DNA from: Actinomyces massiliensis 4401292
Lineage (GTDB): Bacteria > Actinomycetota > Actinomycetes > Actinomycetales > Actinomycetaceae
Direction of reading: 5' to 3'
NCBI RefSeq assembly: GCF_000269805.1
Contig: NZ_JH711483.1
Span: 439,808-503,807, forward strand
DNA: 64,000 nucleotides
The position numbers were made by a program, and so were the translations under genes. Shown here one piece after another: positions 4,643 through 51,629 of this stretch. The notes beneath the pieces were generated by a model, which had not been told where the DNA came from, did not search any database, and saw nothing but the letters and a program-made list of their open reading frames with translations. Positions within the stretch are counted from its first letter, which is position 1. Every line of letters begins with the position of its first letter.

Positions 4643-4696
4643 CGAGATCGGTCGTAATCCGCATCGAGATCGGTCCGGTTCCGCGCCGAGATCGGT
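4643..4696 (+). repeat. 22-bp tandem repeat array, 3 units (argS-lysA)
   Basis: The core CGAGATCGGT begins at 4643, 4665 and 4687, exactly 22 bp apart. The 12-nt linkers are CGTAATCCGCAT and CCGGTTCCGCGC. The last core continues TTGA, the terminal signature seen in most arrays. A degenerate core (CGAGATCCGC) lies 18 bp before the first unit. Confidence 0.9.
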
Positions 4697-4732
4697 TGAT
4701 ACGGCCCCCGAGCCAGAGCCAGAAGGAGAATC

Positions 4733-6151
4733 ATGACTGCTGCGACCGTTCCCGCTGGAGAGTCGGCTCCGGGCACCCTGGTCTGCCCCGAGCCCGCGGA
4801 CCGTCCCGACCTGTGGCCGTGGACCGCACGACGGCGCGATGACGGGGTCCTGGAGGTCGGCGGGGTGGCCCTGACCGATATTGCCGCGGATTTCGCCACC
4901 CCCGCCTTCGTCATGGATCGCGCCGATCTGCGCGGGCGCGCCCGCGTATGGGCCACCGCCATGGCCGAGGAGTTCTGGGACGGCTACGGCATGAGCGGCG
5001 GTGACGCCTTCTACGCGGGCAAGGCCTTCCTGTGCTCGGACGTCGTGCGCACCGTTACCGAGGCCGGCATGGGGGTCGATACAGCCTCCCTGGGCGAGCT
5101 CACCCTGGCTCTGCGCGCCGGTGCCGCGCCGTCGGCGGTGGGCCTGCACGGCAACAACAAGCTCGACGCCGAGATCGAGACCGCCCTGAGCGCCGGAGAC
5201 GGCCAGGGCATCGAGCGGATCTTCATCGACTCCCTGGATGAGGTCGCCCAGATCGAGTCGATCGCCGCCCGGCTGGGCACCACCGCCCGCGTCATGATCC
5301 GGGTCAAGACCGGTGTGCACGCCGGTGGCAATGAGTACGTCTCCACCGGGCACGAGGACCAGAAGTTCGGCGTGGGCGCCTTCGACGGCCAGCTCGACGA
5401 GGTCGTGGCGGCCATTAAGGCCAGCGAGCACCTGGAGTTGCGGGGCCTGCACAGCCACATCGGCAGTCAGATCCAGGGCACTGCCGCCTTCGAGGAGGCC
5501 GCCGGCATCATCTGCGAGCTCGCAGCCAGGGTGAGTGCCAAGACGGGCGCTCCGCTGCCCGAGATCGACCTGGGGGGCGGCGCGGGAATCGCCTACTCGG
5601 GAGCTGACCCGGTCCCCACCGCTCCCATTGAGGTGGTGCGCGCCATCGCAGGCGCCGTGCGCTCGGCTTGCGACCGCCTGGGCATCAGGGTCCCGCGGGT
5701 CTCCTTGGAGCCCGGGCGCTCCATCGCTGGCCCCACCACCATCACCCTCTACCGGGTCGGCGTGATCAAGGACGCGATTCTGGACGACGGCGCCCGCCGT
5801 CGCTACGTCTCCATCGACGGCGGCATGGCCGACAACATCCGCCCGGCCCTCTACGGGGCGACCTACACCGCGGCCGTGGCCAACCGCGTCTCGCAGGCGC
5901 CGGCGGTGCGCTGCCGCGTGGTGGGCAAGCACTGCGAGTCCGGCGATGTCGTCGTGTGGGACGTGGACCTGCCCGAGGACCTCGGGCGCGGCGACCTGCT
6001 GGCCGTGCCCGCTACCGGCGCCTACGGCTACTCCATGGCCTCGAACTACAACATGCTGACCAAGCCGGGTGTCGTGGCCGTGGAGGACGGCGCCGCCGGC
6101 TGGGTGGTGCGCCCCCAGACCCTGGAGGACCTCCTGGCGCTCCAGGGTTGA
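4733..6151 (+). CDS. lysA: Diaminopimelate decarboxylase
   Basis: This PLP enzyme decarboxylates meso-diaminopimelate to L-lysine, the last step of lysine synthesis. It is 472 aa and preceded by a good ribosome-binding site (AGAAGGAGAA). Motifs of the fold III (Orn/DAP decarboxylase) family are in order: FATPAFVMDR near the N-terminus, the PLP lysine in YAGKAF (K97), GLHSHIGSQI with PLP-stacking His (about 240), DLGGGAGIAY (about 280), EPGRSIAGP (about 326), the dimer-interface Cys in GKHCESGD (C401), and GAYGYSMASNYN near the end. A 22-bp repeat array fills the gap from argS. Confidence 0.97.
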   Translation: MTAATVPAGESAPGTLVCPEPADRPDLWPWTARRRDDGVLEVGGVALTDIAADFATPAFVMDRADLRGRARVWATAMAEEFWDGYGMSGGDAFYAGKAFLCSDVVRTVTEAGMGVDTASLGELTLALRAGAAPSAVGLHGNNKLDAEIETALSAGDGQGIERIFIDSLDEVAQIESIAARLGTTARVMIRVKTGVHAGGNEYVSTGHEDQKFGVGAFDGQLDEVVAAIKASEHLELRGLHSHIGSQIQGTAAFEEAAGIICELAARVSAKTGAPLPEIDLGGGAGIAYSGADPVPTAPIEVVRAIAGAVRSACDRLGIRVPRVSLEPGRSIAGPTTITLYRVGVIKDAILDDGARRRYVSIDGGMADNIRPALYGATYTAAVANRVSQAPAVRCRVVGKHCESGDVVVWDVDLPEDLGRGDLLAVPATGAYGYSMASNYNMLTKPGVVAVEDGAAGWVVRPQTLEDLLALQG

Positions 6152-6627
6152 GGTGTGGGGCGCCTCGCGGGATCGGGGTACTGCGCTCGTCGGGTATCAG
6201 GGACTTCCCCTACTCCCCGGGTAGGAGACGGCCGGCGGGCGGAATCCTCCCCGAGGCTCTGCATTGAGGGCGGTGGGCCTCCATACGCTACGTGACATGA
6301 GCGCAGCAGTGTCCTCCCTCGAAGTGCCCCCGCCGCCGGTCCATCGCAGCGGTGATCTGGCTCTGCCCTACTCGGTAGATCTGCGCGGGGCCCTCCGCCG
6401 GGCCTGGGCCGCGATGACGCGTCGCCGGAGGTCGTGAACGGGGCGACCGGTGCCGGCTGGTACTGAACCGGTACTGAACCGGTAATGACCATGGCCTGAG
6501 CACGGCTGTCCGGAATCGATCTGCCGGGCGCGCAGCCAGGCGCGGGCCATGGACGGGCGCCGCCACCTATGCTGGACCGCGACGCAATCGCCCTTCGGCG
6601 CAACCCTCCCGAGCAAGGTGGTCCCCC
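6152..6627. other. lysA-hom intergenic region
   Basis: This 476-nt gap holds a candidate 46-codon leaderless frame (6297-6437, listed separately), a tandem GTACTGAACCG repeat near 6460-6480, and presumably the hom promoter. No riboswitch or attenuator with Thr/Ile-rich leader codons was recognised. Confidence 0.5.
6297..6437 (+). CDS. Possible leaderless 46-aa ORF upstream of hom
   Basis: The ATG at 6297 lies 7 nt after a TACGCT -10-like hexamer (6284-6289), as expected of a leaderless actinobacterial transcript. The frame has high third-position GC. The peptide is Pro-rich near its N-terminus and ends with an Arg cluster (AAMTRRRRS). It is not rich in Thr, Ile or Met, so it does not look like a classical threonine-operon attenuator peptide. 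No family is recognised; it may be chance. Confidence 0.25.
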   Translation: MSAAVSSLEVPPPPVHRSGDLALPYSVDLRGALRRAWAAMTRRRRS

Positions 6628-7965
6628 GTGACTGAGCAGCCCCAGCCGACCTTCCCTCCCCCCGGTGCCGCGCCCGTGCTGCGGGTAGGCGTTCTCGGTT
6701 CCGGCACGGTCGGCACCCAGGTCGTGCGCCTCCTGCTGGAGCAGGCCGACGACTTCGCCGCGCGCAGCGGGGCCCGCATGGAGATCACCGGCATCGCCGT
6801 GCGCAACCTCGACGCCCCCCGGGATCCTGCCGTCCCCCGCGAGCTCCTGACCGACGACGCCACCGCAGTGGCCACCGGCAACGACCTCGTCGTCGAGCTC
6901 ATCGGCGGGATCGAGCCCGCCCGCACCCTCATTCTGGCCGCCTTCAAGGCCGGGGCGAGCGTCATCACGGGCAACAAGGCCCTCATCGCCGCTCACGGAC
7001 CCGAGCTCTACGATGCTGCGGCGGCGGCCGGCACCGATTTCTACTACGAGGCGGCGGTCGCCGGCGCCGTCCCCGTCGTCTACGCCCTGCGCGAGTCCAT
7101 GGCCGGGGACCGCGTCACCAGCGTGCTCGGCATCGTCAACGGCACCACCAACTACATTCTCGACGAGATGAGCACCAAGGGGCTCTCCTTCGATGAGGTC
7201 CTGGCCACCGCTCAGGCGCTCGGCTACGCGGAGGCGGATCCGACGGCCGACGTCGACGGCCTGGACGCTGCCGCCAAGGCCGCGATCATCGCGTCCCTCG
7301 CCTTCCACACCCGTGTCGGACTGTCCGATGTCCAGGTCGAGGGAATCCGCTCCGTGACCGCGGATGATATCCGCGAGGCCCACGCCTCGGGCTGCGAGCT
7401 CAAGCTGCTGGCGATCGCCCAGCGCCGGGAGGACGAGCACGCCCACGGCGTCTCGGTGCGCGTCCATCCCGCCCTCGTCCCGGCCGATCACCCGCTGGCG
7501 AGCGTGCACGGCGCCTACAACGCCGTCCTGGTGGAGGCCGAGAGCGCCGGGCGCCTCATGTTCTACGGTCAGGGCGCCGGCGGCGCGCCGACCGCCTCGG
7601 CGGTCCTGTCCGATGTCGTCGCCGCAGCCGCTCATCGGGTCAACGGCGGCCAGGCCCCCCGCGAGTCCTCCTACGCGCGCCTGCCGATCCTGGGGCCGGA
7701 GGCGGCCGTCACCCGATACCAGATCCAGTTGCGCGTTGAGGATGCCGCGGGATCCCTGGCGGCCATGGCCGGCGTCTTCGCCGACAACGAGGTGTCCATC
7801 AACTCGGTGCGTCAGAGCGCCTATGTCACCAGTGATGGGGCGGCCGTGGTCACCTTCGTCACCCACCCCGCCCCCGTCTTCCACCTCGATGCCGCCGTCG
7901 AGGGCCTGCGGGCCTCGGACCGGGTCATGGAGGTCGTCTCCGTCCGGCGCGTCGAGGGGCAGTGA
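6628..7965 (+). CDS. hom: Homoserine dehydrogenase
   Basis: NAD(P)H-dependent reduction of aspartate semialdehyde to homoserine, the branch point to threonine and methionine. The product is 445 aa from a GTG. It shows a Rossmann nucleotide-binding motif GVLGSGTVGTQ (about 22-32), VITGNKALIAAHG with the catalytic-region Lys (K117), the conserved YEAAVAGAVPVV and INGTTNYIL-type segments, and ADPTADVDGLDAAAK. A C-terminal ACT domain (about 370-440, AGSLAAMAGVFADNEVSINSVRQ) is the threonine-feedback module of actinobacterial enzymes. It overlaps thrB by 4 nt, so the two are co-translated. Confidence 0.97.
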   Translation: MTEQPQPTFPPPGAAPVLRVGVLGSGTVGTQVVRLLLEQADDFAARSGARMEITGIAVRNLDAPRDPAVPRELLTDDATAVATGNDLVVELIGGIEPARTLILAAFKAGASVITGNKALIAAHGPELYDAAAAAGTDFYYEAAVAGAVPVVYALRESMAGDRVTSVLGIVNGTTNYILDEMSTKGLSFDEVLATAQALGYAEADPTADVDGLDAAAKAAIIASLAFHTRVGLSDVQVEGIRSVTADDIREAHASGCELKLLAIAQRREDEHAHGVSVRVHPALVPADHPLASVHGAYNAVLVEAESAGRLMFYGQGAGGAPTASAVLSDVVAAAAHRVNGGQAPRESSYARLPILGPEAAVTRYQIQLRVEDAAGSLAAMAGVFADNEVSINSVRQSAYVTSDGAAVVTFVTHPAPVFHLDAAVEGLRASDRVMEVVSVRRVEGQ

Positions 7966-8879
7966 GCATGCGCTTGGCGAATGAGCGGGCTGCCGTACGG
8001 GTGCCGGCCACCACCGCCAACATGGGGCCGGGCTTCGACTCCTTCGGCATGGCCTTCCGCTACTACGACGAGGTCGAGGTTCGCCCGGTCGCGGGCGCCA
8101 CCCGCGTGCACGTCGAGGGCGTGGGGGAGGGGAGCGTCCCGACCGGGAACGACAACCTCGTCGTGCGTGCTCTGCGCGCTGGCCTCGACGCCGTCGGCGC
8201 CCCGCAGGCGGGTTTCGAGATGCGCTGCGTCAATCGCATTCCGCACGGCGGGGGAATGGGGTCGTCCGCATCGGCGGCCGTCGCCGGTCTCATGCTCGCC
8301 CGGGGACTGCTCTCCGAGCCCCGGGCCCTGCCCGACGACGAGGTGTTCCGCATCGCCACCGGCTTCGAGGGGCATCCCGACAATGTGGCGCCGGCCGTCT
8401 TCGGCGGGGCGACCGTGGCCTGGGTGGAGGCCGATGGCACGCCCCGGGCCGCGCCCATGCCGGTGGACGGAACATTGCCGGTCAGCCTTCTCGTACCGCC
8501 GTCCACAACCCGTCTGAGCACCGAGGAGGCGCGCAAGGTTCTACCGGACTCGGTGCCGCGCGCCGACGCCCTGTTCAACACCTCGCGTGCCGCCGTTCTC
8601 ATGCTCGCCCTGGCGGGCCGCCCCGACCTGCTTCTGACCGGTACCGAGGACCGTCTCCATCAGGAGTACCGCCGCAGCGTGCTGCCCTCGTCGATGGCGG
8701 TCATGGATTCCCTGCGCGGGCAGGGCTATCCCGCGGTGATCTCCGGCGCCGGTCCCACGGTGCTGGTGCTTGCTGACGTCGCGCAGCAGACCCGCTTCAC
8801 CCTCGAGCGGCACGGCTGGACGGTCCTGCGCCCCGGAATCGACACCCGCGGAGCGGTACTGACCTCAGCGGCCTCCTGA
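7962..8879 (+). CDS. thrB: Homoserine kinase
   Basis: This GHMP-superfamily kinase phosphorylates L-homoserine for threonine synthesis. It is 305 aa, starting at the GTG that overlaps the hom stop (GTGA); an ATG two codons later is an alternative. It carries VPATTANMGPGFDSFGMAF at the N-terminus, the ATP-binding GHMP motif PHGGGMGSSASAA (about 93-105), and a C-terminal GAGPTVLVLAD loop. It is translationally coupled to hom. The threonine synthase gene expected in some actinobacterial clusters is not here. Confidence 0.96.
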   Translation: MSMRLANERAAVRVPATTANMGPGFDSFGMAFRYYDEVEVRPVAGATRVHVEGVGEGSVPTGNDNLVVRALRAGLDAVGAPQAGFEMRCVNRIPHGGGMGSSASAAVAGLMLARGLLSEPRALPDDEVFRIATGFEGHPDNVAPAVFGGATVAWVEADGTPRAAPMPVDGTLPVSLLVPPSTTRLSTEEARKVLPDSVPRADALFNTSRAAVLMLALAGRPDLLLTGTEDRLHQEYRRSVLPSSMAVMDSLRGQGYPAVISGAGPTVLVLADVAQQTRFTLERHGWTVLRPGIDTRGAVLTSAAS

Positions 8880-8958
8880 ACCGACTGAACCGATTCCTCT
8901 GAGCGGATGGTGAACGCTCCCCGTGGCCAGGCCGGAAGAGGGTTCTTACGGTGAGGCC

Positions 8959-9630
8959 ATGAGCGCACGCGATTTCAATAGTCAGCCTCAGGGGACGCAT
9001 CTGCCCGCCGGTCTCGTTCCTCCCTCGGTCGAGGAGGATGTCCGATCGGCGATCTGGAAGCAGATCGTCCTTGGTCATGCCGATGAGGCGACCCTGGCTT
9101 TTGATATTGCCGACCAGTTCTCGGATGGTCCTGCGCCGGTCGATGAGGACGGGGTTCGCGCCGCGGTCCATCACCTGCTCGCTGTTCGCCGCGGGCAGCA
9201 GGAGACCTTCGGAGAGGTCGTGACCAACCTCGACAGCGCTTTCGCCACCCTGCGCGAGCGCGGGGTCATCGCCGAGCAGGTCTTCTCCTGCTGCAACACC
9301 TGCGGTTTCGATGAGATCCGGGGTGTGTCCGATGGTCCCCATTGGGCCGGATTCGTCTTCTTCCACCTGCAGGACGCCGAGGAGCTCGTCGAGACCGGCG
9401 AGACCTACTTGTCGTACGGGATGTTCTGGAGCCACTACAAGACGCGCATGGAGTATGACGCCATGAGCGAGGACGCCAGGAGCGCGTACTGCGAGGAGCG
9501 GACCCGCGATCTCGTGCGGCTCGTCGTCGTCCCCACGCTGCGCGAGTACGGGCTTGAGGTGGACTGGAACGAGGACCTGAATACTCGCATCCTTCTGCGC
9601 GGTGCGGAGTTCTACCGACCGATCCCCTGA
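8959..9630 (+). CDS. DUF6891 family protein
   Basis: A 223-aa soluble protein from the ATG at 8959. It has a helical N-terminal half, then FSCCNTCGFDEIRGV with a CC-x2-C cluster, then HWAGFVFFHLQDAEELVETGETYLSYG and a C-terminal GLEVDWNEDLNTRILL. I recognise this combination (a CC(N)TCG motif followed by G-x-x-F(F)H-x-Q-D) as the DUF6891 family of actinobacteria, whose function is unknown. No membrane segment or signal peptide is visible. It stands alone between thrB and a monooxygenase pair. A possible enzymatic or metal-binding role of the three cysteines is speculation. Confidence 0.75.
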   Translation: MSARDFNSQPQGTHLPAGLVPPSVEEDVRSAIWKQIVLGHADEATLAFDIADQFSDGPAPVDEDGVRAAVHHLLAVRRGQQETFGEVVTNLDSAFATLRERGVIAEQVFSCCNTCGFDEIRGVSDGPHWAGFVFFHLQDAEELVETGETYLSYGMFWSHYKTRMEYDAMSEDARSAYCEERTRDLVRLVVVPTLREYGLEVDWNEDLNTRILLRGAEFYRPIP

Positions 9631-9764
9631 GTGTGCTGAGATCGAGATGCTGAGGCATACCGAGGTGTGCGAGGCATGCTGAGACATGTCGAGACGTGGG
9701 AGCGTGCGCCTGTTGCGGGCCTGTTCCGGCTCGGGCCGGCTCTGACGCCCGGGAGCAGATCAAA

Positions 9765-9807: not shown

Positions 9808-9860
9808 AATAACTTGAGGGTCGAGTTTCTCTCCGGTGAGAGCGAGAGAAAGGACCTCCC

Positions 9861-11009: not shown

Positions 11010-11010
11010 C

Positions 11011-11820: not shown

Positions 11821-11880
11821 AGTGGCATGCGCTATATGGCATGACGGGTGCGGATGCATGCGTTTGCGCTTATGTGCTGC

Positions 11881-15577: not shown

Positions 15578-15737
15578 CGCTTCTTGGATGATTCGGACGA
15601 TGTTGTGCATGTCTCGGAGGCGGGCGTGGCTCGTCCGTTGTGCACTGCAGCGGCGGGAGGCATAATCGCCCCCGGCCTCCGGTTCACCCGCGCTGCGCGC
15701 GCGGGACCCGGCGCCCTCTGGATGCTAGGAGATACCT

Positions 15738-16011: not shown

Positions 16012-16087
16012 CGAGATCGGTCGAGTTCCGGCGCGAGATCGGTCGCAAACCGCGCCGAGATCGGTTCACTTCCGCATCGAGATCGGT
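16012..16087 (+). repeat. 22-bp tandem repeat array, 4 units (rpmE-prfA)
   Basis: CGAGATCGGT cores begin at 16012, 16034, 16056 and 16078. The linkers are CGAGTTCCGGCG, CGCAAACCGCGC and TCACTTCCGCAT. The array starts about 60 nt after the rpmE stop and ends 43 nt before the prfA start. Confidence 0.9.
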
Positions 16088-16130: not shown

Positions 16131-17219
16131 ATGAGCGAGGACTTCTCCGCCGTCGAACCGCTGCTGGCCGAGTACGCCGACCTGGAGCGGGACATGGCCG
16201 ACCCCGCCGTCGCCTCAGATCCGGGCGCCATGCGTCGCCTGGGGCGCCGCTACGCCGAGCTCGGACGGGTCGTGACGGCCCATCGCGCATGGCGGAACGC
16301 CTCGGCCGATCTCAATGATGCCCGTGAGCTCGCCGCTGACGACGCCGATTTCGCCGCCGAGCTTCCGGGACTCGCCGAGGCCGAGGCCGCCGCCGCCGAT
16401 CGACTGCGCGAGGTGCTGGTGCCCCGTGACCCCGACGACGCCCGCGACGTCATCATTGAGGTCAAGGCGGGCGAGGGCGGTGAGGAGTCGGCGCTCTTCG
16501 CCTCCGACCTGGCTCGCATGTACGCCCGGTACGCCGAGCGCATGGGGTGGGCCGTCGAGATTCTGGACGCCGCCGACTCCGAGCTCGGCGGATACAAGGA
16601 CGTGCGCCTGGCCATCAAGGCCCGTCACGCGGTGGAGCCCCAGGAGGGGGTTTGGGCGCACCTGAAGTACGAGGGCGGCGTCCACCGTGTTCAGCGCGTG
16701 CCCGTCACCGAGAGTCAGGGACGCATCCATACCTCGGCCGCCGGCGTGCTGGTCATGCCCGAGGCGGACGATCCCGGGGAGCTGGAGATCGACACTGCCG
16801 ACCTGCGCATCGACGTCTTCCGCTCATCCGGGCCGGGCGGGCAGTCCGTCAACACCACCGATTCGGCCGTGCGCATCACCCACGTGCCCACCGGCATCGT
16901 CGTCTCCATGCAGAACGAGAAGTCGCAGCTGCAGAACAAGGAGGCGGCCATGCGCGTGCTGCGCGCGCGACTGCTCGCCGAGCGCGCCGCCGCAGCCGCG
17001 GCCGAGGAGGCGGATGCCCGCCGCTCCCAGGTGCGCACCGTCGACCGCTCCGAGCGCATCCGCACCTACAACTTCCCCGAGAACCGCATCGCCGATCACC
17101 GCACCGGCTACAAGGCCTACAACCTGGACACTGTGCTCGACGGCGGCCTCGGGCCCGTCATCGCCTCGGCCATCGAGATGGATGAGGCCGAGCGCATGGC
17201 GGCGATCGGCGAGCGGTGA
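16131..17219 (+). CDS. prfA: Peptide chain release factor 1
   Basis: RF1 reads UAA/UAG stop codons and triggers peptidyl-tRNA hydrolysis. It is 362 aa, the usual length. The catalytic GGQ is at 236-238 in [20 protein letters not shown]. The preceding domain has [24 protein letters not shown], and the C-terminus has [25 protein letters not shown]. The Q of GGQ is the methylation target of PrmC, encoded next. The 115-nt gap between prfA and prmC carries a 22-bp repeat array. Confidence 0.97.
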
Positions 17220-17261: not shown

Positions 17262-17315
17262 CGAGATCGGTCCGGTTCCGCGCCGAGATCGGTCGCAACC
17301 CGTGTCGAGATCGGT
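17262..17315 (+). repeat. 22-bp tandem repeat array, 3 units (prfA-prmC)
   Basis: Cores at 17262, 17284 and 17306 with linkers CCGGTTCCGCGC and CGCAACCCGTGT. The 5' flank is CCCCTTCGC and the last core continues TTGAGAG, so both flanking signatures of the family are present. It ends 19 nt before the prmC GTG, so it would be within or just upstream of that gene's leader. Confidence 0.9.
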
Positions 17316-21077: not shown

Positions 21078-21824
21078 TCATCTGACGGCCAGCTCGCGCA
21101 GCGGTGTCCAGCCCGCGGGCAGGGGACCGCTGATGGAGGCGCGGGCGCGGTCCTGAGTCGCTGACCAGCCTTGCGCCGCTTCCGATCCCTCTGGTCCGTC
21201 TGTGCCCACCGCGCCTCGCGCGAGTCTCAGTCCTGTGCCCTCGACGACGGCGTCGGGCGCGCTGCCCCGGCGAGTCGATGCCCGGACGCTCCAAGGGGGG
21301 TCCGCCCAACTACCACCGCGGAAGACCCTGTAGTCGCCATAGCGGGCGGGATCGAGGTAGTCCCAGCACCACTCCCACACGTTCCCGAGCGTGTCGTACA
21401 GGCCGAAGGCATTCGGCTGCTTCCGCCTCACCGGTTGCGGCCCGTCGATGCCGTCGAGTGACGTCCATGCGATCTTCTGCAGGTCCCCGTAATGGGGGCC
21501 GGCCGTTCCTGCGCGACATGCGTACTCCCATTCCGCCTCGGTCGGCAGCCTGAAACCGTCGGCTCGTACGTTCCAGCGCACCCAGCGATCATTGATGGTG
21601 TAGGCGGATTGCAGTCCGTGGGCAGAGGACAACCGGTTGCACAGGTCGACGGCTTCGAGCCAGGTCATGCTGCTCATCGGACGGTCGCTCCCATTCCGGA
21701 CCAGTGCGCAGCGAGAGATGGAGAATGCTTCAAGCGTTACCGTACGGCGGATGTCGCGGCGGGCGTCGTGAAGTTCTACGGTCCCTGGGGTAATGTCCGT
21801 CATTTCACCGATCTCGTAGTCCAC
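21078..21824 (-). CDS. SUMF1/formylglycine-generating-enzyme-like protein
   Basis: A 248-aa protein with the C-type-lectin-like FGE-sulfatase fold: RPMSSMTWLEAVDLCNRLSSAHGLQSAYTI, FRLPTEAEWEYACRAGT, NAFGLYDTLGNVWEWCWD, then YRVFRGGSWADPPWSVRASTRR. FGE proper converts Cys to formylglycine in sulfatases using a Cys pair near the R-R/GFR end; here that end reads GTGLRLARG without such a pair. It is more likely a lectin-like or ergothioneine/hercynine-type paralogue than a true FGE. No sulfatase or radical SAM gene is near. The GTG at 21824 has AGGATCG upstream; an ATG at 21803 is an alternative start. Confidence 0.8.
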   Translation of the reverse strand: MDYEIGEMTDITPGTVELHDARRDIRRTVTLEAFSISRCALVRNGSDRPMSSMTWLEAVDLCNRLSSAHGLQSAYTINDRWVRWNVRADGFRLPTEAEWEYACRAGTAGPHYGDLQKIAWTSLDGIDGPQPVRRKQPNAFGLYDTLGNVWEWCWDYLDPARYGDYRVFRGGSWADPPWSVRASTRRGSAPDAVVEGTGLRLARGAVGTDGPEGSEAAQGWSATQDRARASISGPLPAGWTPLRELAVR

Positions 21825-29148: not shown

Positions 29149-29202
29149 ACCGATCTCGATGCGGAGATCGACCGATCTCGGCGCAGAACCGGACCGATTT
29201 CG
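29149..29202 (-). repeat. 22-bp tandem repeat array, 3 units (maa-nitroreductase)
   Basis: Cores on the minus strand occupy 29149-29158, 29171-29180 and 29193-29202 (the last with one change, ACCGATTTCG as read on plus). The terminal signature (core then TTCA) is at the low-coordinate end, 53 nt upstream of the nitroreductase start. Confidence 0.88.
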
Positions 29203-29938: not shown

Positions 29939-30014
29939 ACCGATCTCGACGCGGAACTGGACCGATCTCGAGCCGGAACTGGACCGATCTCGGTGCGGAG
30001 ATCGACCGATCTCG
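29939..30014 (-). repeat. 22-bp tandem repeat array, 4 units (divergent maa/ABC lipoprotein)
   Basis: Minus-strand cores occupy 29939-29948, 29961-29970, 29983-29992 and 30005-30014. One linker contains GAGATCGA next to the core, giving a local GAGATCG/CGATCTC inverted pair. The array sits between divergent maa and the solute-binding protein gene. Confidence 0.9.
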
Positions 30015-35672: not shown

Positions 35673-36109
35673 GCGCCCAAGTATCTCGTCAGTACCTCAT
35701 CCTCGACGAGTGCTTTCGAGTCTGGTTTTGTGCGTGCAGTGCTCGGGGCGGGCCGTTCCGGGCGGGTTGCACATGGGAGAGCGGGGCGGTGGCGAAACGG
35801 AAGGATTTTTGGGCGGAATTCTAGGGATTCCGAGTGGCGTCATGATCGCTTGAGCGGCTCCCATGTGCGTTGAGGGGGGTCTATGCACATGGGAGAGCGG
35901 CCGCGATGTTTGTTGGATTCCTGTTTCCGCATGATTCAGCGGTTCTACTCGGTGCGGGTCGCCCCCGAGTGTGCAATGACCCTGATCCGGCACGCACGAG
36001 CCCGGCCGAGCCTGCGATGAAGGCCTTCCGCATGCGCAACAGCCTTCGAGGACCGACTCACCTGGCTCATCTGGGCCTTCTCCTGCATGCCTGAACGCCC
36101 TGGCCGGTC
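35673..36109. other. Intergenic region with GCACATGGGAG repeats
   Basis: No convincing gene. The 11-mer GCACATGGGAG occurs at 35769-35779 and 35885-35895 (both extending to GAGCGG) and inverted at 35858-35868. The last two make a hairpin with a 16-nt loop. These could be operators for the SDR promoter or relics of an element. The remainder to 36109 shows nothing recognised. Confidence 0.5.
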
Positions 36110-38695: not shown

Positions 38696-38799
38696 CAGGA
38701 GTAGCCCCTTTGCTGCTGGTGTCGCGGCGCCTGTGCCGAGGCGCGTCTGGCTGATGAGGCGACGATACAGGCGGTGGACGATCGTGGTCCTCCTTCGCC

Positions 38800-38875
38800 G
38801 AGATCGGTCGGCTTCCGCATCGAGATCGGTCCGGTTCCGGCTCGAGATCGGTCCGGTTCCGGCTCGAGATCGGTC
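38800..38875 (+). repeat. 22-bp tandem repeat array, 4 units (GH31/GH13 divergent)
   Basis: Cores at 38800, 38822, 38844 and 38866. Linkers CGGCTTCCGCAT, CCGGTTCCGGCT and CCGGTTCCGGCT; the last two are identical, a sign of recent unit duplication. The 5' flank is CCTTCGC. The array ends 47 nt before the GH13 start. Confidence 0.9.
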
Positions 38876-40787: not shown

Positions 40788-40885
40788 CGAGATCGGTCCG
40801 GTTCCGCGCCGAGATCGGTCGCACTCCGCGCCGAGATCGGTCGAGTTCCGGCTCGAGATCGGTCGTAATCCGCGTCGAGATCGGT
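40788..40885 (+). repeat. 22-bp tandem repeat array, 5 units (convergent genes)
   Basis: Cores at 40788, 40810, 40832, 40854 and 40876 with terminal TTCA. The array starts 9 nt after the GH13 stop and lies between convergent genes, so it is downstream of both and not a promoter element here. Confidence 0.9.
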
Positions 40886-40935: not shown

Positions 40936-41694
40936 TCACGTTGCGCTGATGCGTCGCTTTCCCAGGTGCGCCACGAGCAGTGCGCACAGGGTGAACTCGG
41001 CTCCGGTCAGGATGGCGCTGCCCCATGTCAGGGACGTCCAGCCGTCATCCGGGGCGAGCGTGTCCAGGAAGACGGCGACGAGGTTGCCTCCCAGGTGCAT
41101 GCCCAGGGCGAAGAACAGGGATCGCAGTCGTACCACGGACCATCCCGCCACTAGGCCGAACAGCAGCTTGTCGGGAACCTGGAAGGCGTAGACCTGAGCA
41201 GGAACCTCTGAGCTGATCCAGGTGGGCAGGTGCATGGCGGCGAACATCAGCGCTGTGACCCCGACGGCGATCCCGGCGCCCCGACGCTCCTGGAGCGGAG
41301 TGAGGATGATGCGCCGCAGGGTGATCTCCTCGGGAATCGCGTTGAGGCAGCCGCCTATGAGGATCGCCACGAGTGTGGTGATGAGCAGTTTTGAGGGCGC
41401 GGCGTCCGCGATCGCGGCTCCGACGTCGGGCCTGGACTGCATGTGAATGAGGACGGTGCCGACCGCCGGCGCTGCTGCGCCCAGTCCAAGGAGCGCCCAT
41501 GGACCCCACGGCCCGTCGGAGTAGAGCAGGGCGCGGAACGGCCGGCGCTCCACAAGGCGCCAGTAGGCGAGCGCGCCCGGATGGAGCAGGAGCATGAGCT
41601 GCCACGGGCCGCCCACCAGGGCCAGCCCCGTCATGGCCACTGGGACCAGCAGGGCGAGAAGGAAGCAGATGATTCTCAGGTGGCGACGGGGCAT
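40936..41694 (-). CDS. CPBP-family intramembrane glutamic protease
   Basis: A 252-aa membrane protein with about six to eight hydrophobic segments. The catalytic motif is AIPEEITLRRIIL (EExxxR), followed by MFAAMHLPTW (His) and FALGMHLGGNLVAVF (His/Asn). It is unlike the CPBP gene at 27330-28373 outside these motifs. Possible roles are prenyl-protein-type processing or bacteriocin immunity; no bacteriocin gene was found nearby. Repeat arrays lie both upstream and downstream. Confidence 0.85.
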   Translation of the reverse strand: MPRRHLRIICFLLALLVPVAMTGLALVGGPWQLMLLLHPGALAYWRLVERRPFRALLYSDGPWGPWALLGLGAAAPAVGTVLIHMQSRPDVGAAIADAAPSKLLITTLVAILIGGCLNAIPEEITLRRIILTPLQERRGAGIAVGVTALMFAAMHLPTWISSEVPAQVYAFQVPDKLLFGLVAGWSVVRLRSLFFALGMHLGGNLVAVFLDTLAPDDGWTSLTWGSAILTGAEFTLCALLVAHLGKRRISAT

Positions 41695-41787: not shown

Positions 41788-41863
41788 ACCGATCTCGAGC
41801 CGGAGATGTACCGATCTCGGTGCGGGTTACGACCGATCTCGGCGCGGAGAACGACCGATCTCG
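41788..41863 (-). repeat. 22-bp tandem repeat array, 4 units (overlaps clcA 3' end)
   Basis: Minus-strand cores at 41788-41797, 41810-41819, 41832-41841 and 41854-41863, plus a decayed fifth at 41766-41775 in phase. The ClC stop codon lies inside the array, so one and a half units are translated as the ClC C-terminus. Confidence 0.9.
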
Positions 41864-43140
41864 GCGAAAGAGGAAAAAGAAGAGGAGGTCAGCCACCAGC
41901 AGCCCGCCGCGACCACCGCCATGAGCGCCAGCACCCACAGCCCGGGCCGCACGAGCTCCCACACGAAGAGCGTGCCGAACACGGGAGCGCGCTGGGTCAT
42001 GGCCAGGACCGCCCCCGCTCCCACCAGTGCGAGCGCCGGCACGCTCGCGTCCCAGCCCGCCAGACCCGCCAGTCCCGCCGCCGCGGCCCCCGCGCTGCCG
42101 CCCAGGGCGAAGGACGGCGCCAGCAGCCCGCCCGTGGCCCCCGCTCCCAGCGTCAGCCCGGTCAGTACCGGCTTGAGCACCATGACGCCGCCCAGCGCCA
42201 CCAGCGCCGCCCCCGTCGTCGGCGATGCCAGCGCCGCCTCCAGGGCGTCCCGACCATTGCCCGGCAGGACGGGCAGCCACAGCGACGCCGCGCCCGTGAG
42301 CAGGCCCGCCGCAGCGATGCCCGGCGGGAGTGCCCAGCTGTTCGGGAGCCTGTGTGCCTTGAACCAGCCCCACAGTCTGCGTGCGCCCACGCCGAGCGCC
42401 ATGAGCCCCGGCGCCATCGCCAGCGCCGTCAGCACTGTGGCGGCCGTTGGCCCGCTCACCGTCACCTCGAAGGTCGGCAGGCCGCGGGAGTGCAGCCACG
42501 AGACGACCGTCGCGATCGCACTCACCGGCAGCGCCAGCCACACCCCGCGGCGCCGCGCCCCCGCCGTCAGGGTGATCTCGACGGCGAACGCCGCCCCGCC
42601 CAACGGCACGTTGTACATCGCTGCCAGACCGGCTCCTGCCGCCGCGGCGACGAGCAGGGTCGTGGTGCCGGCCTCCAACCCCAACCACCGCGCCAGCCGG
42701 GCGGCGACGGCGCCCGACATGAGGCGCGGCGCCCCTTCACGACCCACGGAGTTGCCGGCGCCCACGACGAGGACCTGCAGCGCGCCGTCGGCGAAGGGAC
42801 GCGTCAGCCCCATTCGCGCCGCCGCGGTTCCTGAGCCGTCCGCCACGGCGTCCTCAACGCCGACCACACCGCCGGTGGCCCGCTCCCACCACCACAGCGC
42901 CCCCGCCGCAGCACCGCCGAGGGCGGGTGCGAGCACGCGACGCCACGGCGGAGCGGCCTCGACCCGCTCAGGCAGCGTCCCCTCAGCGATCCCGTAGAAG
43001 AGCCACTCGAAACCCTCGAGAAGGTAGGCCATGGCGATGCCGATCAGCCCGGCCGCCGTGCCCGCCAGCACGACGGCGATCACAAGGCGAGCCGTCCGAC
43101 CCGCGCGGCCGCGCGGCGAAGGAGGGGGTGGGGGTGTCAT
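41827..43140 (-). CDS. ClC-family chloride channel/antiporter
   Basis: A 437-aa membrane protein with about 10-12 helices. The ClC signature segments are GNSVGREGAPRLMSGAVAARLARWLGL (the G-x-E-G-P-like selectivity helix, here REGAP), AGAGLAAMYNVPLGGAAFAVEI, and LTLGAGATGGLLAPSFALGG. It moves chloride or fluoride, perhaps for acid resistance; the E that gates proton exchange sits in GREGAP, so an antiporter is possible. The ATG at 43140 is preferred over an upstream start that adds a non-conserved 45-residue leader. The last residues (AEIGRSPRRDRS) are translated from the intergenic 22-bp repeat. Confidence 0.88.
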   Translation of the reverse strand: MTPPPPPSPRGRAGRTARLVIAVVLAGTAAGLIGIAMAYLLEGFEWLFYGIAEGTLPERVEAAPPWRRVLAPALGGAAAGALWWWERATGGVVGVEDAVADGSGTAAARMGLTRPFADGALQVLVVGAGNSVGREGAPRLMSGAVAARLARWLGLEAGTTTLLVAAAAGAGLAAMYNVPLGGAAFAVEITLTAGARRRGVWLALPVSAIATVVSWLHSRGLPTFEVTVSGPTAATVLTALAMAPGLMALGVGARRLWGWFKAHRLPNSWALPPGIAAAGLLTGAASLWLPVLPGNGRDALEAALASPTTGAALVALGGVMVLKPVLTGLTLGAGATGGLLAPSFALGGSAGAAAAGLAGLAGWDASVPALALVGAGAVLAMTQRAPVFGTLFVWELVRPGLWVLALMAVVAAGCWWLTSSSFSSFAEIGRSPRRDRS

Positions 43141-47183: not shown

Positions 47184-47363
47184 AGCTGACTCGCTGACTC
47201 GCTGAATAGCAGCCGGGCTGTGCTGCTTGCTCTGCTTACTCCGCTTGCTACTTACTACGCCTCTTTGATCCTTACTGGATGGGGAAGAGGAGCGTGCTCA
47301 AGGGGGAAGGAGCGTAGTGAGCGCGGGTAAGCGCAGGTAAGCGTCATGGGCGTAGCTATCGCG

Positions 47364-49691
47364 TCACTCGGAGGGCGCCGCTGCGGCGCTCACCGCCGCG
47401 CCGAAGTCGGGGATGTCCTCCATGGGGATGACGCCGCTGTTCTGGCTGACCAGGCTGATGGCCTCGCGCAGCCCCATCCACCACTGATGGAGGGGCCTGC
47501 GCGAAGCCAGGTCCAGTTCGTCGTTCATGCGCTCCAGCCGGTGGTGGGAGATCCGTCCGCCCGTCAGGCCCACATAGCTGGAGTGGTAGGTGCCCGCCTC
47601 CAGCTGCTCCGCAAGCAGATCCAGGGCGTGGGCTACGAGCTTGGTGGCCATGATGCGGTCGAAGGCGGACGGGTCCCCGCCCTGCTGCAGGTGGCCGATC
47701 GCCGCATGGCGCACGTCGTACAGGCCGTGCCCCTCCTGGGAGAAGATCTTGGCGAGCACATCCAGGGTGTAGTTCTTGCTCGCCCGCTCGTTGCGGATCA
47801 CCAGGTAGAGCTGGCGGCCCGAGCGGAAGGAGTCCACCATGCGCGCTGAATCCTGGGCCAATTGGGCCAGTGTGAGGCCGTCCTCGTTGAGGTAGACGCG
47901 CTCGGCGCCGGTGGCGATACCGCTCATGAGGGCGAGGTATCCGCACTTGCGGCCCATCGACTCGGCCACGAAGCAGCGGTGGGAGGCGGCCGCCGACTGC
48001 TTGATCGAGTCCAGCGCACCCACGGCGTTGTTCAGGGCGGTGTCCGCTCCGATGCTCAGCTCGCTGCCCGGCAGGTTGTTGTCGATCGAGGCGGGCACGC
48101 AGATGATCGGGATCTTGAAGGCGGGGTAGCGGTCCCGCTCCGAGACCAGCTCGTATGCGGACAAGTAGGCGTTGAACCCGCCGATGATGAGCAGGGCGTC
48201 GATTCGGTGGGATTCGATGGCGCGTCCCAACGAGTAGAGTTGCTCGATGGTGGGGATTTCGCGCCGCGTGCCCAGCTCGGCGCCGCCGTCGCCCACCCAG
48301 CCCTCGACGTCGTCCCAGCTCAGCTCTCGCACGTCGCCGTCCAGGAGGCCGGGGAAGCCCCCGTAGACCCCGAGCATGGTGAAGTCGTGATCCAGGCCGA
48401 GGCGCACTGCCGCTCGCGCCGCCGTGTTCATGCCGGGGGCGAGACCGCCCGCGTGGATGATGGCGACCCGCTTGGACTCCGCGCTCGGCGACTGGTCCGA
48501 GGCGGCGTCGGGGTCGAGCTCGGGGGGAGTGGACATGGTCTCGAAGATCCGCAGCATCTCCCCGAAGCTCGCGCCGCGGGCGGCCACCGCCCCCTCGTAG
48601 TCCCCGCTGGCGACGAGGTCTTTGACGGCGCGGGTGGCGCGGATCTGCTCCATCATGGGCAGACGGCTGATGCGGTTGTGTCGCTCGGCGATGATGACCG
48701 GCTCGGACTCCGGGGTGGCGGTGACCGCCTCGTGGGCGGCCGCGCAGCCAAGCAGCGTCGACATCCACCGGTCGTAGGCGCTCGGCTTACCACCGCGCTG
48801 AACATGGCCGAGGATCGTGACGCGGGCGTCCTCGCCCAGCCGTTCGGACAGGACGCGCTTGACGTCGTCGGCGGAGATGGGGTTGCCGGATCGGTCGGTG
48901 GCGCCCTCGGCGACGACGACCATGGACTCGCGGCGCCCGGCCTCACGGCCCTTGGCGAGTTTGCGGCACATGTCCTCCTCCCAGCCGCCGGCGGGCGGGA
49001 GCTCGGGCACCAGCACGTAGTCGCACCCTCCGGCGACGGCGGCCATGAGCGCGAGGTAGCCGCAGTGCCGTCCCATGACCTCGATGATGAAGGTGCGCTG
49101 GTGGGAGGCGGCGGTCGAGGAGATGTCGTCGATCGCCTCGAGGATGCGATGCAGGGCGGAGTCCGTGCCGATGGTCATGTCGGCGCCGACGAGGTCGTTG
49201 TCGATGCTCCCGACCAGGCCGGTCACCATGAGCGCGGGGTGGGCGGCGGCCTTCTCGGGCGAGATCTCGCCGCGCTCGGCCAGCTCGGCGACGAGTCCGG
49301 GCCAGTTCGTGCGGAATGCGTCGGTGCCGGTGAGCGAGCCGTCTCCGCCGATGACGACAAGACGGTCGATGTCGTGCTCCAGGAGGTTGCGGGCGGCGGC
49401 CAGCTGCCCGTCGCGCTCGCGGAACTCCGCGGAGCGGGCGGTGCCGATGACCGTGCCGCCGCGGTGGAGGATCGAGCCGACCGAGTCCCAGTTGAGCGGG
49501 CGGATGCTGTCGCCTCCGGCGACGGCGCCGGCCCACCCCTCCATGACGGCGTAGGGCTGGGCGCCCATGCGCAGGGCTGCCCGGACGACGGCGCGCACGG
49601 CGGCGTTCATCCCCTGCGCGTCACCGCCGGACGTCAGGACACCGATCCTCACCGGTGCGTCAGTAGGGGCGTTGGCGGGCGCGGCGGTCAT
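47364..49691 (-). CDS. pfkA: Fused double-domain 6-phosphofructokinase, eukaryote-like layout
   Basis: At 775 aa this is two PFK domains in tandem; ordinary bacterial PfkA is about 320-350 aa. The N-half (about 15-390) is catalytic: LTSGGDAQGMNAAVRA, IGGDGSLTGTD (Gly, not Asp, in GGDGS marks ATP rather than pyrophosphate use), GLVGSIDNDLVGADMTIGTD (base Asp retained), MGRHCGYLAL. The C-half (about 400-775) has lost these: HAGGLAPGMNTAARAAV, IGGFNAYLSAY in place of GGDGS, and ASIDNNLPGSE with Asn for the second Asp. It is therefore probably allosteric, as in animal and fungal PFKs. The ATG at 49691 has GAGAGGGAC upstream. Confidence 0.92.
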   Translation of the reverse strand: MTAAPANAPTDAPVRIGVLTSGGDAQGMNAAVRAVVRAALRMGAQPYAVMEGWAGAVAGGDSIRPLNWDSVGSILHRGGTVIGTARSAEFRERDGQLAAARNLLEHDIDRLVVIGGDGSLTGTDAFRTNWPGLVAELAERGEISPEKAAAHPALMVTGLVGSIDNDLVGADMTIGTDSALHRILEAIDDISSTAASHQRTFIIEVMGRHCGYLALMAAVAGGCDYVLVPELPPAGGWEEDMCRKLAKGREAGRRESMVVVAEGATDRSGNPISADDVKRVLSERLGEDARVTILGHVQRGGKPSAYDRWMSTLLGCAAAHEAVTATPESEPVIIAERHNRISRLPMMEQIRATRAVKDLVASGDYEGAVAARGASFGEMLRIFETMSTPPELDPDAASDQSPSAESKRVAIIHAGGLAPGMNTAARAAVRLGLDHDFTMLGVYGGFPGLLDGDVRELSWDDVEGWVGDGGAELGTRREIPTIEQLYSLGRAIESHRIDALLIIGGFNAYLSAYELVSERDRYPAFKIPIICVPASIDNNLPGSELSIGADTALNNAVGALDSIKQSAAASHRCFVAESMGRKCGYLALMSGIATGAERVYLNEDGLTLAQLAQDSARMVDSFRSGRQLYLVIRNERASKNYTLDVLAKIFSQEGHGLYDVRHAAIGHLQQGGDPSAFDRIMATKLVAHALDLLAEQLEAGTYHSSYVGLTGGRISHHRLERMNDELDLASRRPLHQWWMGLREAISLVSQNSGVIPMEDIPDFGAAVSAAAAPSE

Positions 49692-49965
49692 CGATGTCCC
49701 TCTCTCGTGGTCCGGCTGGTCCGGTGCCCTCATTGTCTCCCGCCAGTGGGGTCTGCGTCACGTGGACGACGGCGCTTCTTGCGGTGAGGCGGGTGGTTTC
49801 GGGGAGGGGGTGAGGCGGGTTCGGCCTGCCTCGGCATCGACGGCGGTCGGCCTCATGAGTGTGCTTTTCTCGCAACCGCCTCTGGGACGCGGAGCGAGTG
49901 GAGAAAAGCGCGTGCACGCGCGAAAGTGTGTTCTGGAGTCCTCGAACTGCCCTAGAGTCGGAGCC

Positions 49966-50271
49966 CTAGAGCCGCGGGCCGTCTCCCTGGCGGTAGCCGA
50001 ACCATGCTGCCGCTGCTCGGCGCATGCTATCGGTGAGCTTGGAGTAGGGCAGTGGGGTCTTGCCCTCCTCGCGCACGGCGTCCTCGATGGTGTCGCGCAC
50101 GAGCCACACGTCGGCCGGGTCCATCACCGCGTTGACCTCGAGTGCGGCCTGGAACCGTTCCGGAGGCAGACCGGTACGTTCTCGCACCTGCGCCCGGGTG
50201 AGGCCGGTCAGGGCGAGATTGTTGTCGAGCTCGCGAGCGGTGGTTTCGCGTTCGCGGCGGTTCAGGCTCAT
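49966..50271 (-). CDS. DUF2316 family protein
   Basis: A 101-aa protein from the ATG at 50271: SLNRRERETTARELDNNLALTGLTRAQVRERTGLPPERFQAALEV, then DPADVWLVRDTIEDAVREEGKTPLPYSKLTDSMRRAAAAWFG. This is the DUF2316 family of small predicted HTH proteins found in Gram-positives. The TRAQVRERTGLPPERFQAAL portion looks like the helix-turn-helix. Function is unknown. It is transcribed in the same direction as pfkA, but 274 nt apart. Confidence 0.82.
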   Translation of the reverse strand: MSLNRRERETTARELDNNLALTGLTRAQVRERTGLPPERFQAALEVNAVMDPADVWLVRDTIEDAVREEGKTPLPYSKLTDSMRRAAAAWFGYRQGDGPRL

Positions 50272-50308
50272 GATGCTGATGCTACTCGTGATACTGCCTG
50301 GTCGCCTG

Positions 50309-50426
50309 CGTCCTCGAGTGCCGTCCATGTGGATCGGCGGAGGCCGACGCGGAGCCGCGTAGGTCGACGTATACCGGCATAGGCCGGCATGGGCCGGCAT
50401 GGGCCGATGGGCGGCACTCGAGGACG
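50309..50426. repeat. Nested inverted and decamer repeats upstream of DUF2316
   Basis: CGTCCTCGAGTGCCG (50309-50323) and its exact complement (50412-50426) enclose 88 nt. Inside are GGCCGACGCGGAGCCGCGTAGGTCG-like inverted segments and three CCGGCAT(A/G)GG decamers in tandem near 50374-50404. It lies between the VOC stop and the DUF2316 start, both on minus. It may be a structured leader or terminator. Confidence 0.55.
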
Positions 50427-50454
50427 ATGGGGTGTGGCGAGGCGGGATCGGGCG

Positions 50455-50823
50455 TCAGGACTTGTCGTGAACGGTGATCGCGTAGCCGTCGGGATCGGCG
50501 AAGGTGAAGGTGAGGCCGAAGGGGCCGGGCTCCGGGGCCCGCAGTACGGTGACCCCCGCTTCGCTCAAGGATTCGTGCAGTTCGGCTACGGCGTCGCAGT
50601 GCATCCACAGTGCCACTCCCAGTCCGGGCTGTCCCCCGGCGTCGAGCTCGACACCGGGAAGCGGCTCGCGCACCGCGAAGGGAATGGGGGCGGTGTCGAA
50701 GACAACCGCGCCAGGAGGTGCGGCGGGGAGTCTGCGCAGCTTGAGCTGCGACTCGTAGAACTGCGCCGACCTGCCCAGATCGCGGACCTGCAGGGCGATG
50801 AAATCAGGGCCGGAGACTGTCAT
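50455..50823 (-). CDS. VOC (glyoxalase/bleomycin-resistance-like) protein
   Basis: A 122-aa vicinal-oxygen-chelate protein. DFIALQVRDLGRSAQFYESQLKL begins the first module; GLGVALWMHCDAVAELHESLSEAGVTVLRAPEPGPFGLTFTFADPDGYAITVHDKS forms the second, with the DPDGY-x-I-T/E-x-H ending. It is divergent from a MarR regulator and separated from it by two strong palindromes, so it is probably the regulated gene. The substrate is unknown; an antibiotic-binding or detoxifying role is possible. Confidence 0.87.
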   Translation of the reverse strand: MTVSGPDFIALQVRDLGRSAQFYESQLKLRRLPAAPPGAVVFDTAPIPFAVREPLPGVELDAGGQPGLGVALWMHCDAVAELHESLSEAGVTVLRAPEPGPFGLTFTFADPDGYAITVHDKS

Positions 50824-50851
50824 GGGATTCCTCTTGTCTCGTTCGTTCTTG

Positions 50852-50899
50852 CATGTCAGGATCCTGACATGTGCGACCGTATGTCATCATACTGACATG
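50852..50899. promoter_or_regulatory. Two ATGTCA/TGACAT MarR operators between divergent VOC and marR
   Basis: CATGTCAGGATCCTGACATG (50852-50871) is a perfect 20-bp palindrome. ATGTCATCATACTGACAT (50881-50898) shares the same ends. The centres are 28 bp apart. The second overlaps the marR ATG, so binding would block both promoters and marR translation initiation or leaderless transcription. Confidence 0.78.
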
Positions 50900-51409
50900 T
50901 CGCAAGATGATCGCCGCCCCGGCTCCGGCGAGCCCGGCGGTTCCGGCAGCCCAGACATTCCCGGCAGTCCCGGTAGCGCCGAGGCCGTCGGCGACCTCGG
51001 CGCTCTGGTCGGCTACCAGCTCAAACGAGCGCAGTCGGCATTGCGGACGCAGATGGATGAGGCCCTGCGGCCCATGGGGCTGACTGCTCCGCAGTACGCG
51101 TGTCTGGAGCTGCTGAGCCGTCACCCGGGCGCCTCGAACTCCGACCTCGCTCGCGGAGCATTCGTGACTCGTCAGAGCATGAACGCACTGCTCCGAGGCC
51201 TCACGCAGCGGGGGCTGGTGGCGCGTGCCAGCAGTGCGCCGAGCGGGCGGGCGCTGCCGGCTGCGCTGACCTCCGAGGGGGAGCGGCTTCTCCGTCGTGC
51301 CGAGCGCTGTGTTGGGGCCATCGAGCGGCGCATGGTCGCCGGTCTCACCGACGACCAGTGCGAGGCGCTGCGTCGGGCGCTGTCCCAATGCGCCGATGCC
51401 CTGCAGTGA
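50897..51409 (+). CDS. MarR-family transcriptional regulator
   Basis: A 170-aa regulator beginning with a disordered Gly/Pro/Ser-rich tail (about 1-35). The winged helix is LTAPQYACLELLSRHPGASNSDLARGAFVTRQSMNALLRGLTQRGLVARASSAPSGRALPAALTSEGERLL, with recognition helix TRQSMNALLRGL. Long terminal helices give the dimer interface. The ATG at 50897 lies inside an operator; there is no Shine-Dalgarno, so the transcript may be leaderless. It is divergent from the VOC gene, the likely target. Confidence 0.87.
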   Translation: MSQDDRRPGSGEPGGSGSPDIPGSPGSAEAVGDLGALVGYQLKRAQSALRTQMDEALRPMGLTAPQYACLELLSRHPGASNSDLARGAFVTRQSMNALLRGLTQRGLVARASSAPSGRALPAALTSEGERLLRRAERCVGAIERRMVAGLTDDQCEALRRALSQCADALQ

Positions 51410-51509
51410 GGGGTCGGACGGCGACCATCAGGAGCTCCCGGGAACTGTAGCCTCGGCGGAATCCCGATGCTGCCATGTCGCTGATTCGCTGAATCTCTGC
51501 ATGAAGTGA

Positions 51510-51629
51510 ACCGATCTCGACGCGGAACCGGACCGATCTCGACGCGGAACCGGACCGATCTCGACGCGGAACTGGACCGATCTCGACGCGGAACCGGACC
51601 GATCTCGGTGCGGAGTACGACCGATCTCG
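51510..51629 (-). repeat. 22-bp tandem repeat array, 6 units (marR-sucC)
   Basis: The longest array: minus-strand cores at 51510, 51532, 51554, 51576, 51598 and 51620 (10 bp each), terminal signature TTCA at the low end. Linkers GACGCGGAACCGG-like are nearly identical between units. It runs opposite to both flanking genes (marR and sucC are both on plus). The rest of the 51410-51837 gap holds decamer repeats (GAACTGCCA) near 51764-51790 before sucC. Confidence 0.92.

Follow-up and report, generated by a model that had tools for sequence, protein, structure and literature searches.

A dispersed family of intergenic 22-bp tandem repeat arrays in Actinomyces

Results

The 64,000-nucleotide stretch of Actinomyces massiliensis 4401292 analysed here (contig NZ_JH711483.1, positions 439,808 to 503,807; hereafter the window) contains nine arrays of a short tandem repeat, in which a 10-bp core, CGAGATCGGT, recurs every 22 bp and is separated from the next core by a 12-bp linker. 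Dinucleotide shuffles of the window predict 0.55 copies of the core, whereas 37 are present; 35 of these exact copies lie in the nine arrays and two are solitary, at 21807 and 32556. A first-pass annotation of the window had listed nine arrays with 36 units, and this count was borne out: 35 units carry the exact core, the remaining one carries the mismatched core CGAAATCGGT as the outermost unit of array 29149-29202, and all steps inside the arrays are 22 bp. Eight arrays lie exactly where that annotation had put them, and one was off by one base (38799-38874 instead of 38800-38875). When spacings from 12 to 60 were scanned, 10-mers recurring at least three times in the window were found only at spacings of 22 and 44. 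At 22, the leading 10-mers correspond to the core and to its complement, together with shifted forms of the two.

On the plus strand, a three-unit array (4643-4696) separates an arginyl-tRNA synthetase gene, which ends at 4604, from a pyridoxal-dependent decarboxylase gene that starts at 4733, and is sense to both. Four units (16012-16087, plus) follow the ribosomal protein L31 gene (ends 15950) and precede a peptide chain release factor gene (starts 16131); a GC-rich, terminator-like inverted repeat stands after the L31 gene and ahead of this array. The release factor gene, which ends at 17219, is followed by three further units (17262-17315, plus) and then by a prmC-like gene. The array with the mismatched core (29149-29202, minus, three units) is sense to both of its neighbors, a hexapeptide-transferase gene and a nitroreductase gene. 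Two four-unit arrays are located in divergent regions, at 29939-30014 (minus) and at 38799-38874 (plus), the latter ahead of an alpha-amylase-family gene. Eight bases past the stop codon of that alpha-amylase-family gene a five-unit array begins (40788-40885, plus) and faces inward with four units at 41788-41863 (minus); the latter run into the end of a gene called as a chloride channel (41827-43083, minus), to which they are sense. This is the single gene-end overlap in the intergenic placement that the first-pass annotation had described, and the description holds. The last array, 51510-51629 (minus, six units), runs against both of its flanking genes, a MarR-family gene on one side and an ATP-grasp/CoA-ligase gene on the other, which are on the plus strand; it departs from the orientation tendency described below. 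The window also holds an L31 ribosomal-protein leader (15672-15715) and a ZMP/ZTP riboswitch (58614-58702), both identified with Rfam.

The density of arrays in the window had suggested a genome-wide system, and the whole genome (3.37 Mb, 13 contigs) agrees: it contains 544 exact core-N12-core pairs, 260 forward and 284 reverse, with no match to a reversed-pattern control. A related pattern at a step of 23 matched once, versus 544 pairs at 22. In the 864 kb read in detail, made up of the window and two stretches of contig 1 of 400 kb each, we found 106 arrays of two to nine units when up to two core mismatches were allowed per array call, and 101 with fixed core patterns. Successive exact cores on one strand less than 200 bp apart are 22, 44 or 66 bp from each other. 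With one mismatch allowed, 329 of the 331 core neighbors at most 60 bp apart have a step of 22, and the other two are 29 and 34 bp apart, so that the earlier claim of a period without exception is true in the window and very nearly true in the genome. Exact cores outside arrays number 11, nine of them in called genes, and about seven are expected by chance from shuffles; solitary cores are therefore near the chance level, and units rarely occur alone. An enrichment between genes, which the annotation had proposed to check, was evident, as 3 of the 101 arrays lie mostly inside called genes at a coding fraction of 0.83. Unit pairs of the "CGTACT" type (88 matches) are spread over contigs C1 and C3 and, for this one linker type, are missing from C1:474-608 kb, about 134 kb around dnaA (C1:565 kb); in view of this spread over two contigs, a domain at the replication terminus or origin was set aside as an explanation. 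The hundreds of pairs dispersed over the genome do not correspond to an iteron at a replication origin. A CRISPR was likewise rejected on the repeat layout, given a 10-bp core, 12-bp linkers drawn from a shared vocabulary and many small loci. The core includes AGATCGG, with which a common sequencing adapter starts; an artefact is unlikely because the repeat recurs in several assemblies, including single-contig ones, with a fixed step and varied linkers.

Within the unit, the core is held and the linker varies in an orderly way. Exact cores account for 378 of 438 in the 864 kb, a figure bounded by the two mismatches allowed in an array, and 138 different sequences are found among 332 linkers. 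The earlier linker rule holds, and in a sharper form it reads C, then a five-base word, then CCG (313 of 332), then a three-base word. Twelve first words account for 267 of the 332 linkers and seven second words for 304. Positions within a word are strongly interdependent, with the top pairs sharing 0.4 to 0.8 bits and the 22 strongest pairs all falling within words, and the two words of one linker are coupled more weakly (0.85 bits versus 0.62 shuffled, with none of 500 shuffles reaching 0.85). Words on opposite sides of a core showed no clear coupling, the observed value being reached by 60 of 500 shuffles. The same linker repeats more often at distance two (30/142) than in the adjacent position (16/226). 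At the upstream (5′) edge of the arrays is a pyrimidine-rich stretch, mostly ending in CGC. These word statistics fit old word lineages that were shuffled by unit exchange while the core and the CCG were held. Tandem RNA-polymerase pause sites were considered for the unit; the pause consensus has GG at −11/−10, T at −3, C at −1 and G at +1, and by eye it fits the A. massiliensis unit and not those of genomes G163 or G168, so this reading was dropped.

A search among Actinomyces relatives, which the first-pass annotation had called for, found the same core at the same step. Among 213 genomes of the family, the pattern CGAGAYCGG-N13-CGAGAYCGG, again with a step of 22, is present in 25 of 49 genus genomes, 15 of which have at least five pairs, and in 1 of 164 genomes outside Actinomyces. 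Examples of pair counts are 321 in A. israelii DSM 43320 (G160), 245 in A. gerencseriae (G158), 197 in G163, 143 in G186, 84 in A. denticolens (G156), 80 in A. gaoshouyii (G003) and 69 in G038. In the stretches read, the step is 22 throughout in A. gerencseriae (19/19) and G186 (7/7). When three cores in a row were required but the core itself was relaxed, 3 of the 393 remaining genomes in the class matched, once each; since the reversed control matched about as often (in two), we consider these to be at chance level. In a collection of 84,980 species genomes at least 76 stretches matched; among the matches listed, 75 are named Actinomyces and one Streptomyces, and the named bearers are A. israelii, A. 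gerencseriae, A. denticolens, A. gaoshouyii, A. ruminis and A. glycerinitolerans. The common core carries lineage-specific linkers, for example of the CGAAAATAGGAG, CGAAAACGTCAT, AGTAATAACCAC and GACATATGTACCG types, and the lineages include distant clades of the genus. In a tree built from a single gene for 30 of the 49 genomes, the bearers fall into several clades and one clade of eight is practically without arrays; given this scatter, the family is probably ancient within Actinomyces, with loss or reduction in parts of the genus. Stretches from six genomes with no or few pairs gave no clear excess at spacing 22. Period-20 tandem arrays of unrelated units, some in opposed pairs, occur in G175 (L117, 8748-13278) and G124 (L119, 13810-13914). 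A 20-bp analogue in other clades was rejected on the one pattern tested, from G175, which is confined to a single place (three matches).

We compared the arrays with their neighboring genes in three samples: the 101 A. massiliensis arrays, 73 non-overlapping named loci that were retrieved with a three-core pattern and hence are enriched for longer arrays, and a contiguous sample of 394 kb from A. gerencseriae and A. israelii. The named loci are the 76 matched stretches without the Streptomyces locus and two overlapping loci. Arrays without a gap of 30-2000 bases, or mostly intragenic, were left out, which removed 7 of 101, 13 of 113 and 2 of 25 arrays, respectively. Gap classes, polarity and distances to stop and start codons were counted with the better of two gene callers; the total of 106 arrays, pairing and single-core counts rest on the first caller, which had mis-called the ATP-grasp/CoA-ligase gene at 51838. 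In A. massiliensis, convergent gaps hold 35 arrays where their length would predict 18.8, divergent gaps hold 13 (25.8) and tandem gaps 46 (49.4). The corresponding figures for the named loci are 31 (19.0), 27 (30.9) and 42 (50.1). Arrays in tandem gaps run in the direction of the genes in 32 cases and opposite to it in 14 in A. massiliensis, and at 30:12 in the named loci; in convergent gaps the 5′ side of the array is the one closest to a gene end in 31/35 and 26/31 cases, respectively. For these two samples combined, the bias has p values of 1.6 × 10−4 (tandem) and 1 × 10−9 (convergent). The distance from a stop codon to an A. massiliensis sense array has a median of 34 bases and is at most 60 bases in 50 of 68 cases.

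Neighboring arrays also face each other. For array neighbors less than 1.5 kb apart, inward and outward pairs stand at 23:1 in A. massiliensis, 15:0 in the named loci and 2:1 in the contiguous sample. At 20 sites selected in A. gaoshouyii and A. denticolens, 19 of them chosen from listed opposed pairs, 17 of 18 inward pairs with gaps below 40 show no more than one mismatch between their arms and thus form near-perfect palindromes. The linkers of these pairs match in both arms and differ between sites, so both arms change together, which implies either selection for pairing or arm-to-arm copying. Such palindromic pairing is not general, given that none of 26 A. massiliensis inward pairs shares an identical linker (shuffled mean 1.4; the difference is not significant). 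The bodies between listed paired arrays measure 18 to 1263 bp and one encloses an ordinary gene (40936-41694); because sizes and contents vary, we rejected the bodies as copies of one transposon. No target duplication was noticed by eye in the flanks inspected. Many arrays have next to them, or between them, copies of a non-coding element of about 225 bp that is scattered over the genome; its ends are TGTTGCACATGGGAG and TGTGCAACA, and it contains a hairpin CTCCCATGTGC...GCACATGGGAG (for example at C1:2023-2375, locus L031, with a partial copy in the window at 35859-35976). The 864 kb hold 12 near-complete copies, additional matches occur in A. israelii, and the hairpin or one end alone is found in six further genus genomes; there was no Rfam match to this element in four 20-kb stretches. 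A body of 109-111 bp, similar by eye, leads from an array to an inverted two-unit array at C1 positions 71544, 119712, 232099, 260424, 350095, 362382 and 1553432; the copies at 350095 and 362382 stand in inverted orientation, and their flanks match.

Turnover at orthologous sites was assessed by comparing the 106 A. massiliensis arrays with the 394 kb of contiguous relatives' sequence, using a synteny caller that requires one exact core. Nine arrays could be placed between matching flanks, of which five meet an array in the same orientation, seven meet any array and two meet none by the caller's count; two of these entries share an interval, as do two of the relatives' entries counted below. 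At one of the two sites called empty, that of array 29149, A. gerencseriae has by eye a decayed row in which CGGGATCGGT stands twice, 22 bp apart. The A. gerencseriae site matching 4643 has a two-unit row in the opposite orientation. At 16012, flanks and cores are kept in A. gerencseriae with two units versus four and other words; the core is likewise kept and the words differ at 17262 (two units versus three) and at 38799 (three versus four).

Searches for a known family or a known enzyme were negative. The arrays had no match in Rfam at the gathering score (window and four 20-kb stretches), no match in the viral contigs scanned, and no description in the open-licence PubMed Central papers we found, in line with the annotation's statement that it knew of no catalogued family. 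Its suggestion that the arrays are spread by a dedicated REP-type enzyme was not upheld for the usual one: Y1_Tnp (PF01797), the transposase associated with repetitive extragenic palindromes (REPs), was found in 0 of 49 genus genomes, and the identical search was positive in 5 of 14 control genomes. The 84 direct arrays of at least three units gave no RNA-fold signal (mean z −0.48 sense and +0.37 antisense), and we rejected an RNA hairpin in direct arrays on this basis.

Discussion

As a kind, these arrays are a new family of dispersed extragenic repeats, and they would be more than that if a factor that reads them were found. Among their nearest parallels are the REPs and their composite elements (BIMEs), which occur in many copies, are extragenic, are enriched both behind genes and in convergent gaps, form inverted pairs and have a species-specific sequence (PMC3733652, PMC2817692). 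The Actinomyces arrays are also many-copy and extragenic and occur in opposed pairs and behind genes, although the last feature is absent from the small contiguous sample. They differ in lacking a detected Y1_Tnp transposase, the RAYT partner of REPs, and in consisting of a 22-bp direct repeat in two to nine copies with a conserved core and free linkers, rather than a 20-40 bp palindrome. Each REP unit has a short palindromic stem and an unpaired GTAG or CGTC tag. Our direct arrays gave no fold signal, and palindromes were seen, in some species, only where two arrays oppose each other. BOX elements of Streptococcus pneumoniae have a boxA-boxB-boxC layout, with distinct end modules around a tandem unit of about 45 bp. 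They too are dispersed intergenic repeats (PMC3049150) with a tandem part of variable copy number, but the arrays described here are built of 22-bp units, show no end modules where their flanks were profiled, and have a core that is shared across a genus. This core is shared by loci in the hundreds along the chromosome, unlike iterons, which belong to a single origin. The iterons of plasmid R6K are seven 22-bp direct repeats, and the arrays resemble them as tandem 22-bp direct repeats suited to one protein per two helical turns. In mammalian ribosomal DNA the Sal-box terminators, bound by TTF-I, form tandem rows in which an oriented protein site stands just behind the gene. The Actinomyces rows are similarly oriented, tandem and often right after genes, but they are bacterial and genome-wide, and their role as protein sites or terminators is putative.

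The reading that we favour, tentatively and at somewhat less than even confidence, is that the arrays are oriented platforms for a cooperative sequence-specific factor and act as polar boundaries behind genes. A conserved core with free linkers, a step of two turns and the rarity of single units point to such a binder; cooperative protein binding had also been proposed in the first-pass annotation. Core conservation is also seen at the orthologous sites and in the distant clades, where it depends less on the mismatches allowed when arrays were called. The lack of a fold signal favours recognition as DNA, the polarity at gene ends, present in two of three samples, points to a link with transcription, and polarity and inward pairing together are not predicted for a purely structural nucleoid site. 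One factor, most likely a DNA-binding protein, would have two to nine recognition sites lined up in each array and would bind them cooperatively and head to tail, with one copy or dimer per 22 bp. The factor would read the core CGAGAYCGG, and the two linker words would be tolerated within limits and would drift between species by unit exchange. A row bound in the sense direction behind a gene would then form a polar boundary: it might end transcription as a roadblock, help it to end, or insulate one neighbor from the other.

Several observations weigh against this proposal. There is no polarity among the 23 arrays assigned in the contiguous A. gerencseriae and A. israelii sample (tandem 8:6; one array in a convergent gap versus 2.6 expected; nearest side 12:11), and the named loci, which are polar, come largely from the same species. 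Their bias moreover appears only with the better caller, the first caller having given 18 arrays in convergent gaps versus 16.0 expected and a tandem ratio of 13:17. In A. massiliensis, 30 of 98 arrays are antisense to the preceding gene, and the window has two arrays in divergent gaps and one antisense to both neighbors. Seven of the nine window arrays lie within 100 bases ahead of a same-strand start codon, versus 13 of 98 in the 864 kb, which makes the window more promoter-like than the rest. Array 16012 need not be a terminator where it stands, since the terminator-like inverted repeat precedes it. The step is not inviolate, being 22 in 30 of 33 cases in A. israelii (also 15, 21 and 32), 15 of 18 in G169 (three at 23) and 16 of 17 in G163 in the stretches read. 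Of the relatives' 28 arrays, 10 could be placed in A. massiliensis, with four counterparts in the same orientation, five in any orientation and five arrays without a counterpart; this high turnover fits a dispensable element too.

The main alternative, which we consider somewhat doubtful and nonetheless serious, is a selfish REP/BIME-like repeat with no host function, which would spread through an as yet unrecognised enzyme or through template switching in hairpins during replication. The place behind genes would then reflect tolerated insertions, and the core would be conserved through recognition by the spreading machine. Such a repeat would account for the near-perfect palindromes with matching arm linkers in A. 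gaoshouyii and A. denticolens, for arrays present or absent between orthologous gaps, for the other dispersed sequences enclosed by some pairs and for the preference for convergent gaps, which is described for REPs as well (PMC3733652). It is less easily squared with the negative Y1_Tnp search, the flanks without visible target duplication, the A. massiliensis pairs without a common linker (though this is not significant) or the lack of matches in the scanned viral contigs. Sense orientation and nearness to stop codons would also be explained by a 3′ untranslated RNA element, in which an RNA-binding protein or small RNA would bind the transcribed cores and set mRNA stability. We regard this as improbable: the palindromes in two species would bury the core in a stem, direct arrays have no fold signal, 30 of 98 arrays run antisense to the preceding gene, and RNA needs no constant two-turn step.

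Promoter-side operators for one global regulator are less probable still, although the seven start-proximal window arrays are what they would predict. The multiple 22-bp boxes also have a likeness to response-regulator sites. Only 13 of 98 arrays are start-proximal, however, including those seven; divergent gaps are under-represented in A. massiliensis and, more weakly, in the named loci, and the 40 bases profiled past the last core have no −10-like consensus. Tn7-like elements carry tandem 22-bp sites at their ends that are bound by the transposase. The arrays could in principle be ends of this type, most of them solo, and the excess of inward over outward pairs (23:1 and 15:0) would follow; with bodies of 18 to 1263 bp, one of them holding an ordinary gene, and no target duplication noticed by eye, we hardly expect this to be the case.

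Returning to the oriented platform, a broader statement can be ventured that we think rather unlikely as a whole: that many gene ends in Actinomyces are marked by oriented rows of sites for a dedicated cooperative DNA-binding protein, which halts or insulates transcription one way only. Such rows would be the genome-wide bacterial equivalent of terminator rows bound by protein, with linkers that drift quickly between species and a core and two-turn step that are held. Whichever explanation applies, the arrays supply a simple bait for pulldown and a genome-wide prediction set. If no protein reads the rows, the genus would carry a large REP-like family without a detected known REP enzyme family, which reopens the question of how such repeats spread. 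If a protein does read them, one factor would touch many gene boundaries, with 106 arrays in 864 kb of A. massiliensis and further ones in its relatives, and the species would offer natural variants of its site.

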